From Magnolia sinica (taxonomy: Eukaryota; Streptophyta; Magnoliopsida; Magnoliales; Magnoliaceae): a stretch of 64,000 bases of DNA. Every line of letters begins with the position of its first letter. Position 1 is the first letter of the stretch. Below, one piece after another: positions 4,034-47,208 of this stretch. The notes beneath the pieces were generated by a model that made no database searches, was not told where the DNA came from, and worked only from the letters and a program-made list of their open reading frames with translations. The stretch lies in assembly GCF_029962835.1 (NCBI RefSeq), contig NC_080573.1:93119501-93183500 (forward strand), in the 5' to 3' direction. A program made the translations under genes and the position numbers.

Positions 4034-5569
4034 CTTGAAATCTTCATATCCTACCTCCATTGCATCTTCAAGTGCAGAAAGACCAGGTTGCACCTGCAAA
4101 AAGGGAACCCAAATAGCATGACAAGGATTTCAATACTCAAAAAAGGGTAGAATTACTCTAGTGATGAAGAGAGACGGCAAAAAATAGATAGCTCAATGCA
4201 GGTTAATAACTAGTATTTCTGCTAACAAGGTCTTTCTAATCCCAAATGTGTGTACAACCCAAGCTCCTTCATGCAACCACATATGGCAAATTGACATGAG
4301 TTCAAGATATAGAGAAATGGATGGGCAGAAAAAAAAAAAAAAAAACAGGTTGCTAAATTTCCCTATTTCAAATGTTATGGTCAACAAGAATAGAGCAGCA
4401 TTAATGTTAGGATAGGACATTTGCAAGCTGGTACTCAATTGGTGGACAACTTGGATCTTGCACTTGTGTTCCACATACCAACCTTGTCTGAACTCTAAAG
4501 CAAATCTCAGGAAGGGGAGATCAACCAGCTCCCTCCCAGTGATAAGCTTAGGAAACTGCTCCATGCTACAGAAAATTCATGATGTGCCACTCCCCTCATC
4601 TGAGAATTGGATGGCATAGATAGACATTACCTGCCTTGGACAAAAGGTCACCGTAGTTCTAGGAACCTCGTGCAACACATTCTGTAATAGCCCACTATCA
4701 TTTGAATTGCACATGGTATAGATTGCAATCATCAAATGAGAGAGAGGCCCACAACAGTAGATCTGTGCTAAAAACAATAAGAAAGTAATCTGCTGGACAC
4801 AAACACAAACACAAACACAATCTAAAAGTAATCTGCTGGACACAAACACATCTCATGGACATGCACGCCACGCATGTGAAACATCATTTTCAAACCAAAC
4901 TGCACTCGCTATTTTCAAATCTCACTTCATAGATCATATTTCGAGATAAAAGGTGTCAATTATATAAAAAATTATAATTCAAAAATAGACAATAAAGAGC
5001 ACAAATTCTGATTATAAAGGTGATATTTAGAGTTAAGTTTACCTTCATTGTCATGTTGAAACCGTTCCTTGAATACAGGGACGTCCCTTATTGATCTAAA
5101 ACATTTAAAGAGAATTACAATTAAAAGAAAGAAAGAAAGAAGAAAAGAAAAAAGGCAAGCAGGTAATTAGACACTCAAATGCAACCAAAAAGAAAAATAT
5201 AAACTTATCTGGTTAACTCCCCCTGAAGTGACACCTACACCAACCTGCAACAACGGAAACTAGATCAGTCCCTAATGTGTACTTAGCAATCGAGGCATTA
5301 AAAAAATGTAAGAGTACCTTTGGGGTGAGAACCAGCCAGTGCAACTTTAGCAGATGATCCTGCAACACTCAAAACCAGATCCTGCAAATAAGAGTACCTC
5401 TAGCATTAGCATCTTGCTATTTAAATGATTTTAAGATAGCCAGAGTAAAACCATTTACCCTTAAAGTAACTTACAGCAGATGATACTCTGTTTGAGGTGT
5501 AATTTCTGTACACCTGCTGGTGGCGCATTCTCTGCAACAGCTGCCATGGATGATGAAAATTCCCTACAC

Positions 5570-20785: not shown

Positions 20786-38892
<18,107 letters not shown>

Positions 38893-42378: not shown

Positions 42379-42785
42379 TGTTTTTTCGAGCTCCATTCAT
42401 CAAGTGCAGGCCGTCGGTGGCCCACCTTGGCTCGAGACCTCGGGTGCAGCCGTGCAGGCTGTTGGTGGTCCGCCCTGGCTCTAGACCTTGGTCGTGGCTC
42501 GCCCTGGATCAGGACAGACGCGGATTAGCTATTAAACAAGACAGTGGGTCCACCTTGGCTCGTTGGTGGACTGCACTGCATGGTGGGTCCCGCCCTGACT
42601 CGCTAGTGGTTCGGCCGATCACGGGACCTCACTGGCTCAGCTGCAGCTGGTGGCCCGCCCTGACTCAACCTTGCTGGTGGACTGACCTTCATGGTGGTTC
42701 CCGCCTTGGCTCGCTGGTGGTCCGGCCGATCTCGGGACCTCGCTGGCTCGGGTGCAATGTCCCGCCATGGCTCGCTAGTGGTCTG

Positions 42786-43135
42786 GCTGAGCTAACCCTA
42801 ATCCTACCCCAACCCTAAACCCTAAAACCCTAACCCTAAGCCCAAATCCTAACCCTAAACCCTACCCTAACCCTAACCCTAAACCCTACCCTAACCCTAA
42901 CCTAAAGCCTAAAGCCTAAAGCCTAAACCTAACCCTAGACCCCTTAAACCTAAATCCTAACCCAAACCCTAACCTAAACCCTAAACCTAACCCTAAACCC
43001 TAAACTTTAAACCTTGAACCTAACCCTAAACCCTAAACCTTAAACCTTAAACCTAACCCTAACCCCTTAACCTTAACCCTAACCCTCCCTGGCCCTAAAC
43101 CCTAACCCTAAACCTAATCCCCAAACCCTAATTCT
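42786..43135. repeat. Degenerate telomere-type (CCCTAAA)n array
   Basis: About 350 bases of CCCTAAA, CCCTAA and CCTAAAG-like units, the plant telomere repeat in degenerate form. The array lies wholly inside the 7.2-kb hAT element, after its left subterminal region. It is not a chromosome end, since unique DNA continues on both sides. Confidence 0.9.
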
Positions 43136-43484
43136 TAAATTGAAAAAGTGTTTAATTTATTTGAAATTTTGAATTAAACAATTAGTAGTTACTTTTTATG
43201 GAATTACCATTTACATTGCTTATTAGTTAACTTAATATGTTTGTATAATTGTATTACATTACTTTTTTGCTTATCTTATTTTTGTGTATTATATAGTTAG
43301 TTTAATATGTATTACATTACTTTTTTTACTTAGCTTATTATTGTGACTTGTGTTTGTGAGTTAGATAATTATTTGCCCATTTGATGATTTCTATGTGGCA
43401 TACATAGATATAGTGTGCTTTTGGTGACATAGAAATTGCATAAATTGTCCCATTTTGGACAATTCAATGATCGATGGATAGTAT

Positions 43485-44418
43485 TAGAGCCATACACGAG
43501 TTGAGTTATCTTGTTAGCTTGCTTGGATCAACTCAGAAAAGCTCAACTCAACTCAGATCGAAACTGTGTTCGAGCCGAGTCGAGTCGATTTTTTGAGCTC
43601 GAAAAAATTTCGAAAAAATTTTGAACCGAGTTCAAGCTTGCCCAAGCTTGAATCGACTCGGATCAAACCCAACTCGAATCAAACTTGGATTGAACTAGTT
43701 CGGTGACTTGGTTACTTTGATATTGTTGTTGCTCACCATGTGTTTGATGAAATGACTCAACGAAGTGTAGCTGGTGGCAACTTGCACTTCAGTCTGTTAT
43801 TTTCTTACTTTTCCTCTGGTTGTCATATTTTATAGATAATGTTCCTGTTGCATTTTCTTTTTGTGCTTCTCTTGAGTTTGATAGGATATCTGTCTTTTAG
43901 TGAAATCCGAAAATATCAAAAGAGCACTGAACTGCTGATTAGGAAGCTGTCATTCCAGAGGTTGGTCCGTGAGATTGCACAGGACTTCAAGGTGAGTTGG
44001 AGATGAAATTATAATGTTGGTCCCTTTTTCCAATGTGAGGTAACAAGCTAACTCGACTCGTGTACAGCCCTACTGGCAAGGAAGGTACGTATATGAAACC
44101 AAATACCCTTTTTTTCTTGATTTTATGTTACTTATAAGGTGTTTGATGAAATACCTGTAAATCCATTGTTGTTGTTTTACATACAATAAGATTTTAAAAA
44201 TGCAGTTCATGTGTTTGTGAAAATGCCGCACAGGCGAACTCAACTTGATCTTGGCTCGAACTCAACTCCAATTGGCCTGAGTTGCTGACCAAATTGAGCT
44301 GAGCTGGCCAGTCAGGCTCGAGGACCGAGCTGAGCCGAGTCCGAATTGGGGTCAACAAGTGCCCGAGCCGAGTCGACCTGTACCAAGCTCGACTCGGATC
44401 GACTCGTGTACACCTCTA
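43485..44418. mobile_element. Nested hAT-type element (GTACACGAGTCGAG family) holding an H3 exon
   Basis: Ends are TAGAGCCATACACGAG and the inverse of TAGAGGTGTACACGAG, flanked by GATAGTAT and GATGGTAT (7 of 8). An internal second right end (…CTCGTGTACAGCCCTA at about 44074) shows that a further copy of the same family is nested inside. The stretch between about 43773 and 44046 is foreign to the family and contains a histone H3.3-like exon with intron flanks. 594-bp relatives such as 32651-33244 lack it. Confidence 0.8.
43901..43991 (+). pseudogene. Histone H3.3-like internal exon, captured fragment
   Basis: The 91-nt exon is bordered by a good acceptor (ATCTGTCTTTTAG) and donor (GTGAGT). 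It reads [16 protein letters not shown] and then [14 protein letters not shown], which is histone H3 from the αN region into α1, with Ser replacing the usual Pro of KLPF. Plant H3.3 genes have introns, and both borders match positions I recall (before EIRKY and after QDFK). About 120 bases of T-rich intron precede it and about 50 follow. The rest of H3 (tail and histone-fold C-terminus) is absent, so it cannot make a histone. It lies inside nested hAT DNA and is probably a transposon-captured genomic piece. Confidence 0.88.
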
Positions 44419-45154
44419 GATGGTATGCTTTAATATAACTTATTGAAATGTTTATGCCTGATTTGCGGTTCATCTCTTCATTTCTCTTCCGATATGTTTC
44501 TTCATTTTCATTTCTAATGTCAAATATCTTCACATTGCTTAGATATTTGGTATTGGAATGTAACAGAAGATCAACTTATCTGCAGAGACATGAGGAGATG
44601 CTGCCAGATTTTCAGCGTGGACGTTTAAATAGGAATATGAAAGTATTATAATCTATCCAACCTTTTATGGGTAACTAATTTAACTTATTATTGTGACTTG
44701 TGAGTTAGATAATTAGTTGTCCATTTGAAAATTTCTATGTGACCATATATAGATATAGTGTGTTTTTGGTGGCATAGAAATTGTTCAAATTGTCCCATTT
44801 TAGACAGTTCAAGGTTAGATGGATAGTATGCTTTCATATAACTTATTTAAATGTTCATGCCTGATATGCGGTCCATCTCCTCATTTCTCTCTGGATATGT
44901 TTATTCCTTTTTATCTCTAATGTCAAATATCTTCACATTGTTTAGATATTTGACATTAGAATGTAATGGAGGATCAACTTATTTGGAGAGGCATGGAGAG
45001 ATGCTGCCGAATTTTCGGCGCGGATGTTTAAATAAGAATATGAAAGTATTACAATTTATCCAACCTTAGATGAGTAATTAATTTAGTATTTAATATAACT
45101 CTTTTAATATTAGATTGCTAATGCTAATATGATTTAGTATCTTTAAACTATTAG

Positions 45155-47208
45155 ATGGCTAGTGAGGGTCTTTCGAATACCCTAGGCGGTTTGTCAGTTA
45201 CATCACTGATGATCCTGGAACATGAAGGATTAGGTCTAGAAGATGAAGAGGTGCCCATTGATATTAGTACCTCACAGTCACATCTTACAGGAAAAGTGAA
45301 AAAAAGATCGGTAGTATGAGAAGATTTTGAAGAAGTAACCCTGAAGAACAGCGCCGTGAAGATACAATGTAAGTACTGTAAAACTTAATATGCTAAGTAA
45401 GCAAATGGGTCGACTACAACTCTTAAGAAACATAGTCTAAAGTGTTAGAAAAAAGTGGGAACTCAGACCTCAGGGCAATAAACACTTTCATTTACCCAAT
45501 TAGGGGGTCCATCACAAGGTACATTATCCATCTATAAGTATAACAAAGACCAAGTGAATGAGTTAACGACCAAATTTATTATTGCCAATGAAAGACCATT
45601 TCAAATGGTAGAGAGTCCTGCTTTTGTCGAATTAGCCAGATGCCTTAATCCTAAATACGAGAAGGTCTCATGTACAACAATAAAGAGAGTGTTCATAAAC
45701 ATGTATAAAAGCGAGAAGCTTAAGATGGAAGGACAGTTGGAATCGATTTCCCAAATTAACCTGACATCAGATTTATGAACGACATCTAATTAATGAAAGG
45801 GGTATATGTCACTCACTTCTCACTACGTTGATGTCAAATGAAGGTTCTGCAAGATAATCATAAACTTTCGTTATTTCACACCTCCTCACACCGGATTGAT
45901 GATTTCAGACTGCATGTACAAATGTCTTATGGAGTGGGGCATTGAAAAGAAAATCTTCTCAATAACTTTAGACAATGCCTCTGCAAATGATAGCGTGATA
46001 ACAAATTTGCAGAACCAGTTTAGGGCCACTGGTGACTTGTATTTTTGTGGAAAGATATTTCTTGTTAGGTGTTGTGCCCACATCCTAAACTTGATTGTAC
46101 AAGATGACCTTAAAACAATTGAGCTAACGATCGAGAACATAAGAGAGAATGTGAAGTACATAAGGGGGTCACCTTCACGATTATATACATGGAATGAGAT
46201 CGTGAAGCGGTTGAATTTGTCATATCAGAGAACGATGAAGCTGGATGTCATGACACGTTGAAATTCAACTTTTGAAATGTTGGATTCAGCGATAGCTTTA
46301 AGAGATGATTCTCTCACTATGTGGAGCCTGATAGTGCGTATCTTTGGTTTCCTTCTGAAGATGATTAGTGAAAAACTGAATCAGTTCGCAAGTTCCTTTC
46401 GATTTTTTACGACACAATGAAGAAATTTTTAGGAAGCAAGTATTCAACAACAAATATATTTCTACCAGAACTTTGGAGGGTAAAAAATGTCTTACATAGA
46501 AGCTGTAGTGGACTGGACTTTTTAAAATTAACGACTATGGGTATGCAGTTAAAGTTTGATAAGTATTGGTCTGAGTGTAGTCTGGCAATGACTGTTGCAG
46601 TCATTCTTGATCCTCGATACAAGATGATCATGGTTGTATTGATATGTAATAAGTTGTATGGTGAGAAGAGTGCCCCTAAGGTCGATAAGGTCGATAAGAT
46701 AAGTGATGCAGCTAATGATCTGTACAATTTCTATATGTGCGCCGCAAAAGAGAAAACTCCTTAAGTGAGTTCTAGTTTTGCTTTTGATGAATCGTGAGAA
46801 GAAACGGTAGATGATTTCATGTATTTCGTAGTATAACATGAGACTCAAATCCAGACACCCCAATCAGAACTTGAAAACTATATCAAGGAGCCACTTGTAA
46901 ACTACAAAAGCAATGAGTTTGATGTTTTGGACTGATAGAAGATGAAATCTCGTGATTCACAATACATGATGCTCTTGTTAATAGCACAAGACATATTATC
47001 AATTTCAACGGTGGCTTTAGAATCTGCTTTTAGTATGGGGAGTAGGGCCGTGAACGAGTATCGAAGCTCACTTACACTAGAATCGATTGAAGCGCTCATT
47101 TGTACACAGGATTGGCTACGTCCAATTTACGGGAAAGGGAACTCTGTTGATGAGGAGTTCGAGGAAGAGAAAAGTGACACGCAAGATGAGACAATACCTG
47201 CAGGATAA
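45155..47208 (+). pseudogene. Ac-like hAT transposase, decayed
   Basis: ATG at 45155 opens MASEGLSNTLGG. A BED-finger-like region follows near 45320-45450 (EDFEEVTLKN, IQCKYCKT, TTTLKKHSLKC). Then come FIIANERPFQMVESPAFVEL (45576 on), the catalytic-core region FSITLDNASANDSVI and RCCAHILNLIVQD (45950-46120), a DUF4413-like part (FDKYWSECSLAM, ILDPRYKM, 46550-46640), and the dimerisation end ILSISTVALESAFSMGSRAV then LICTQDWLRPIYG (46990-47130). Order and content match plant Ac-type transposases. Several in-frame stops lie before 45554, with others near 45780-45860, 46261, 46764 and 46935, so no full protein is made. It is the likely former transposase of the 41998-49199 element. Confidence 0.85.

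Follow-up and report, generated by a model that had tools for sequence, protein, structure and literature searches.

A hAT MITE of Magnolia sinica carrying a genomic piece of a histone H3.3 gene, with junctions suggestive of capture at a cut nested copy

In this work we analysed a window of 64,000 nucleotides of the Magnolia sinica genome (C1:93119501-93183500 of a 1.84-Gb genome; unless stated otherwise, positions are those of the window), in which an earlier note made from the letters alone had placed a histone H3.3 exon inside nested hAT DNA. The features concerned are the following.

43330..45085, + strand: two tandem repeats of ~400 bp adjoining a hAT coding relic; the first is broken by the MITE, the second is the empty site
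43477..43484, no strand: left target duplication of the outer MITE, GATAGTAT, equal to 44822-44829 in the uninterrupted sister repeat
43485..44418, + strand: element A, the hAT MITE carrying the H3.3 piece, 934 bp, with terminal inverted repeats and flanking duplications
43774..43781, no strand: left copy of the inner 8-bp duplication, GTGGCAAC
43782..43791, + strand: last 10 nt of H3.3 exon 2 (window TTGCACTTCA; donor TTGCACTTCG)
43792..43900, + strand: complete H3.3 intron 2, 109 nt
43901..43991, + strand: H3.3 exon 3, 91 nt, frame intact, one P-to-S change
43992..44035, + strand: first 44 nt of H3.3 intron 3
44036..44072, - strand: terminal ~37 bp of a second hAT copy (element B), a left-type end, inverted, with terminus TAGGGCTGTACACGAG
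44073..44080, no strand: right copy of the inner duplication (CTGGCAAG in the window; GTGGCAAG in L012, L014 and L016)
44419..44426, no strand: right target duplication of the outer MITE, GATGGTAT
46372..46761, + strand: hAT transposase RNase-H fold of the larger relic (PF14372, E 4.8e-25)

Judged by its sequence, element A is a non-autonomous hAT element (MITE). Its ends read TAGAGCCATACACGAG.../...CTCGTGTACACCTCTA, and it is flanked by an 8-bp target duplication of which 7 of the 8 bases are equal (GATAGTAT vs GATGGTAT). The sister tandem repeat (44680-45085) reads GATAGTAT unbroken at 44822-44829; being continuous through this word, it represents the empty site, without element A. The inverted repeats, the duplications and the empty site bear out the earlier assignment of the exon to a hAT-type MITE, and the nested structure proposed at the same time is visible in the inner 8-bp duplication and in the inverted left-type family end that lies inside element A. 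From their position, the tandem repeats appear to belong to a decayed hAT relic, which would place element A within a larger decayed hAT; the frame at 45143-45463, upstream of the RNase-H fold, contains stop codons. Beside the relic, at 42780-43135, lie degenerate telomere-like CCCTAAA repeats with 36 CCTAA words. In the window, neither Rfam (gathering threshold) nor a tRNA scan gave a match.

The H3 exon is where it had been described: its 91 nt are in frame at 43901-43991 and run from EIRKY to QDFK, between an acceptor TTTTAG at 43895-43900 and a donor GTGAGT starting at 43992. A 30-residue query beginning at the second full codon of exon 3 matched H3 chains over 29 residues with a best E of 1.9e-12 (170 distinct PDB sequences at E<=0.001), and tblastn of a full H3 against the window hit the place of exon 3 at E 5e-13, the next match having an E of 0.88, so that the window holds no second credible H3 exon. 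The single P-to-S change reported in the otherwise intact frame was also found, the donor gene having P and two of the seven copies described below having S. The extent of the piece had to be redrawn, as it holds, in addition to exon 3 and its intron flanks, intron 2 in full and, before it, the 3'-terminal 10 nt of exon 2, while on the 3' side the intron-3 part stops near 44035 and 44036-44072 is the inverted left end of the family, not histone DNA. The histone piece thus amounts to 254 bp (43782-44035), 91% identical to an intact H3.3 gene on C4.

Alignment to the H3.3 genes, the check that the earlier note had proposed, identified the donor as C4:8595506-8595761, with a 256-bp alignment at 91%, introns included, within a gene whose four exons encode an intact 136-residue H3. 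The match corresponds to positions 298-551 of the element, and at E<=1e-4 the 9.9-kb donor locus has no other match to the element. A second H3.3 gene at C4:8609656, 14 kb off, matches at 78% over a shorter stretch. Since intron 2 in its entirety, some of intron 3 and the 10-nt tail of exon 2 are present and match the C4 gene, the retained introns mark the source of the capture as genomic DNA and not cDNA, as had been claimed, and rule out a retrocopy or processed pseudogene. The two intron-bearing H3.3 genes (L009 and L010, at C4:8.595 and 8.610 Mb) are in opposite orientation, and both ORFs beside the donor gene encode PPR repeats according to Pfam.

A genome search with 43773-44074, in which every candidate was scored and the counts are lower bounds, gave at least 19 matches: seven MITE copies with the piece, the window included, the donor gene, the second H3.3 gene, five other H3 genes or gene copies, and five places that match by the hAT end alone. 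Seven is therefore a lower bound for the H3-carrying copies. The six other elements (L011 to L016), found by the further search that had been suggested, restrict the claim that relatives of the MITE lack the exon: it holds for the relative at 32651-33244, which has a perfect 8-bp duplication (ATGATAGA, reverse strand) and no H3 piece, but not for these six elsewhere in the genome. Element A aligns with L011, L013, L014 and L016 at 85-87% over all or most of its length and with L012 and L015 at 83%. Elsewhere on C4, L019 (77.2 Mb; 4517-4924 of the locus) is an H3 gene copy that has no introns and contains a stop codon in frame; it is probably a pseudogene.

The MITE family is apparently very large, as the right half alone gave 6573 first-look candidates genome-wide, 40 of which were scored. 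Thirty loci were extracted: 28 members together with two H3 copies, that of the window and the one at the L016 site. On neither strand does any of these 28 members match H3; the right half is present in every one of them, accompanied by the left half in whole or in part, and terminal repeats were recognized at up to 3 mismatches at the left end in 22 and at the right end in 24 of these 28 related loci. One member, L035 (C5:99626235 region), has a partly GC-rich filler (~1150-1450) at another position inside the element. In a tree built on the outer columns from the seven H3 copies, the 32651 relative and 21 of the 28 members (all but L035 and six members of at most 560 bp), the seven H3 copies form one clade with a support of 0.998 against the 22 members without the piece. 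All seven copies share both histone junctions. Shared junctions and a common clade mean one capture, and we judge it almost certain that a single capture was followed by spread.

Target duplications are perfect at L012 (TGCACAAA) and L014 (GGTGTAGA), and match at 7 of 8 bases in the window and at L016. At L011 and L013 they are partial, and at L015 there is no duplication. The flanks of L013 and L016 are common to both copies, and on C17 about 105 kb separates L011 from L015, which are situated in duplicated DNA and have one flank in common. These shared flanks rule out seven independent transpositions and reduce the seven copies to about five insertions. The flanks and the target duplications point to spread by hAT transposition together with duplication of larger DNA. 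Element A therefore combines the two properties of a Pack-hAT, a host gene fragment between its ends (254 bp of H3.3, donor on C4) and movement after capture (seven copies at about five distinct sites). Pfam was run on eight ORFs, from the donor locus and from the flanks of L011, L012, L014 and L015; besides the PPR repeats, it recognized a hAT dimerisation domain near L014 and WAK-type domains near L015, and no family in the remaining four ORFs.

The junctions of the insert can be read against members of the family without the piece, in which the capture site is GTGGCAAG in 22 of 28 and GGTGGCAAGGAAGG in 16 of 28. Apart from private changes, the H3 copies read GGTGGCAAC/TTGCAC at the left junction and ...GTGTACAGCCCTA/GTGGCAAG at the right junction (the slash marks the join; the window has CTGGCAAG in place of the last word). 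An 8-bp duplication flanks the insert, and its left copy terminates in C, not G; this base, adjacent to the junction, is the complement of the base in members without the piece. The resulting footprint, GGCAACTTGC, is present in five of the seven copies, L013 and L014 deviating by changes unique to each among the copies. On the right, TCCAA is common to donor intron 3 and the element end (five bases; joins sharing at least five bases make up 0.3% of the 7802 possible). Element B lacks its other end, so that element A contains a single internal hAT terminus, and in L015 13 bp of the inner B end are absent.

These observations suggest a route of capture. A second family member, B, would have inserted in A at GTGGCAAG, creating the inner 8-bp duplication, and the transposase would then have cut B at one of its ends. 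There the flanking DNA might have formed a hairpin which, opened off-centre, would give GTGGCAA-C-TTGC. The TTGC end could then have annealed to TTGC near the end of H3.3 exon 2 and served as primer for a copy that extended across exon 3 into intron 3 and was rejoined at TCCAA to the ~37 bp that were left of B. Since A would have kept both outer ends undamaged, the enlarged element would still have been able to move. The nested insertion is supported by the unoccupied site GTGGCAAG of 22 of the 28 members, which is present on both sides of the insert, and the hairpin by GCAA-C-TTGC, a palindrome centred on C, the complement of the last base (G) of the duplication. Such palindromes have been described for Ac/Ds footprints. 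The donor match itself begins with TTGC; hence this word possibly acted as priming homology, and for the same reason the palindrome may be due to chance. We put the chance of finding C plus TTGC at about 1 in 1000, which is our own estimate and not a computed control. At the right junction, the five-base word fits the B end only if one indel and two mismatches are allowed next to it. A pattern search for the pre-capture intermediate, in which B would lie within A and histone DNA would be absent, allowed up to 3 mismatches and returned five matches, all of them H3 copies, and no such intermediate; this search was non-exhaustive, as it missed the known copies L011 and L015. Since each junction signal is short, the route is one that we infer from their combination. 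Taken as a whole, one capture of 254 bp by the MITE and its spread, by way of a cut nested B and a hairpin primer, is the account that we favour as somewhat probable. Its most specific statement, that cutting of a nested copy left a hairpin-opened P-nucleotide end which primed the copying of a host gene by 4-nt homology, so that the element would be a base-level fossil of that event, is advanced only tentatively.

Other ways of acquiring the piece account for part of these signals. Element B could have been itself a complete H3-carrying Pack-MITE that transposed into A and later lost its other end by deletion, an order of events with which the inner 8-bp duplication and the adjoining true hAT terminus agree. 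However, this deletion would have to end within a base of the target duplication, and no two-ended H3-carrying B is present among the at least 19 matches of the genome search, a lower bound for which all candidates were scored, which makes this explanation unlikely. Five shared bases at the right junction would also be expected from the capture route for which PMC8277862, an account of animal Pack-TIRs that presents gap-filling and FoSTeST models, finds compatible multicopy Pack-TIRs in animals; by itself that route predicts neither the 8-bp duplication of A around the insert nor the complemented last base, and we consider it improbable here. Joint mobilization of two MITEs flanking the H3.3 exon, as in the published tandem re-mobilisation model for plants (PMC8903248), would explain why an internal hAT terminus is present, but both halves of A are in register with members without the piece and one internal end stands alone, so that this origin appears very improbable. 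The favoured route, by a cut nested copy and a hairpin primer, is not named in the portions of the Pack-TYPE accounts PMC8903248, PMC8277862 and PMC13317346 on which we draw.

The seven copies show decay. On average, they diverge from one another by 0.104 in intron 2, 0.114 in exon 3, 0.092 in the intron-3 part and 0.143 in the 10-nt exon-2 tail; stop codons interrupt three of the seven exons, the acceptor AG is lost in one copy, the GT at the start of intron 2 is lost in two (L011 and L016), and the exon-3 donor GT is kept in all seven. G-to-A and C-to-T together account for 59 of the 106 counted changes from the majority. Changes in exon 3 from the per-column majority number 11, 10 and 20 at codon positions 1, 2 and 3, and this third-position excess is not taken as protein-level selection on the exon, given the stop codons. 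The exon-3 majority differs from the donor solely by synonymous changes, and the piece was therefore probably intact at capture and decayed later. Measured by these divergences, the copies are shown to decay as if neutral. The earlier note had seen in the exon a splice-competent cassette that could be exonised into other genes or yield RNA matching H3.3. That the exon is kept for such a use, in host genes or as RNA regulating H3.3, could draw on the retained splice sites (donor GT 7/7, acceptor AG 6/7) and on a longest exact match to the donor gene of 23-27 nt per copy; nevertheless exon 3 diverges like intron 2, stop codons are frequent, the longest exact match of the window exon to the donor mRNA is 20 nt and the window copy sits in a decayed hAT, and such a use finds no support in these sequences and is very improbable. 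An ordinary H3.3 pseudogene with colinear exons merely struck by a MITE, which has nothing in its favour beyond the exon itself, can be practically dismissed and is ruled out as a candidate by the lack of any other credible H3 exon in the window, by histone junctions that recur in the six other elements, and by the target duplications.

The locus joins the published gene-capturing hATs, which include a fungal one with H3 and maize Ds elements with exon and intron DNA, and its junctions are unusually legible. In Pseudocercospora fijiensis and relatives, a hAT carries a histone H3 that PMC6710886 derives from a transcript or retrocopy. The two cases are alike in their 8-bp duplications, in an H3 that was captured and amplified, in the inactivation of the copies and in the intact original gene; as described there, the fungal element is ~9.5 kb at full length, with a transposase domain, hundreds of copies, an intronless H3 and decay by RIP, whereas the Magnolia element is a 934-bp MITE with at least seven copies and genomic DNA with introns. 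In maize, gene fragments are carried by Ds2 and Ds-l4 elements such as Ds2-22 (PMC3260210), which are likewise non-autonomous plant hATs with filler from genes, exons and introns among it, the donor being on another chromosome; the genes concerned are others, and the passages considered here mention no nested copy flanked by an inner 8-bp duplication. Maize and rice Pack-hATs (PMC8903248) are also non-autonomous and hold coding DNA, in families that include members without it; the model given with them is tandem insertion followed by joint re-mobilisation, while in Magnolia the junctions suggest that a nested copy was cut. In the western clawed frog, Pack-hAT-N8_XT, as presented in PMC8277862, similarly has a 291-bp piece of a host gene, taken up by a hAT and then amplified, with distinct target duplications, but it is an animal element, with a 5' UTR piece and three copies on different chromosomes. 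No H3 capture by a plant hAT appeared in literature titles and abstract openings, listings that are no proof of absence, and a word search of the main text of a 2026 review of plant transposon gene capture (PMC13317346) found no occurrence of 'hAT' or 'histone'.

The mechanism by which cut-and-paste elements pick up host genes is a matter of debate. In the present case one can read the donor gene, the element in its unoccupied and occupied states and the two junctions, so that competing models of capture can be compared base by base. A core histone exon has been scattered with its splice sites by a MITE, whereas the published hAT case that we found, in fungi, carries a spliced H3. The element may be regarded as a readable fossil of the pick-up of a host gene by jumping DNA, the copied piece giving so far no sign that it acts. 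If the hairpin-primer route is true, fillers elsewhere in the large MITE family could bear the same junction signature.

One of the copies has in addition acquired DNA at its end. In L015 (C17:4596400-4606300), 106 bp (4342-4447) lying directly at the element end are 100% identical to the window flank 44419-44524, while the elements of L015 and of the window differ by about 15%. L011, the duplicate of L015, has different DNA at this place, the main aligned pieces of the two being 79-91% identical. The L015 flank is apparently the product of recent ectopic copying at a hAT end, although it may also be a mis-assembly, and as such it would support ectopic copying at the ends of the H3-carrying MITE subfamily. 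Unlike the H3 capture, this event placed DNA outside the element, not inside it.
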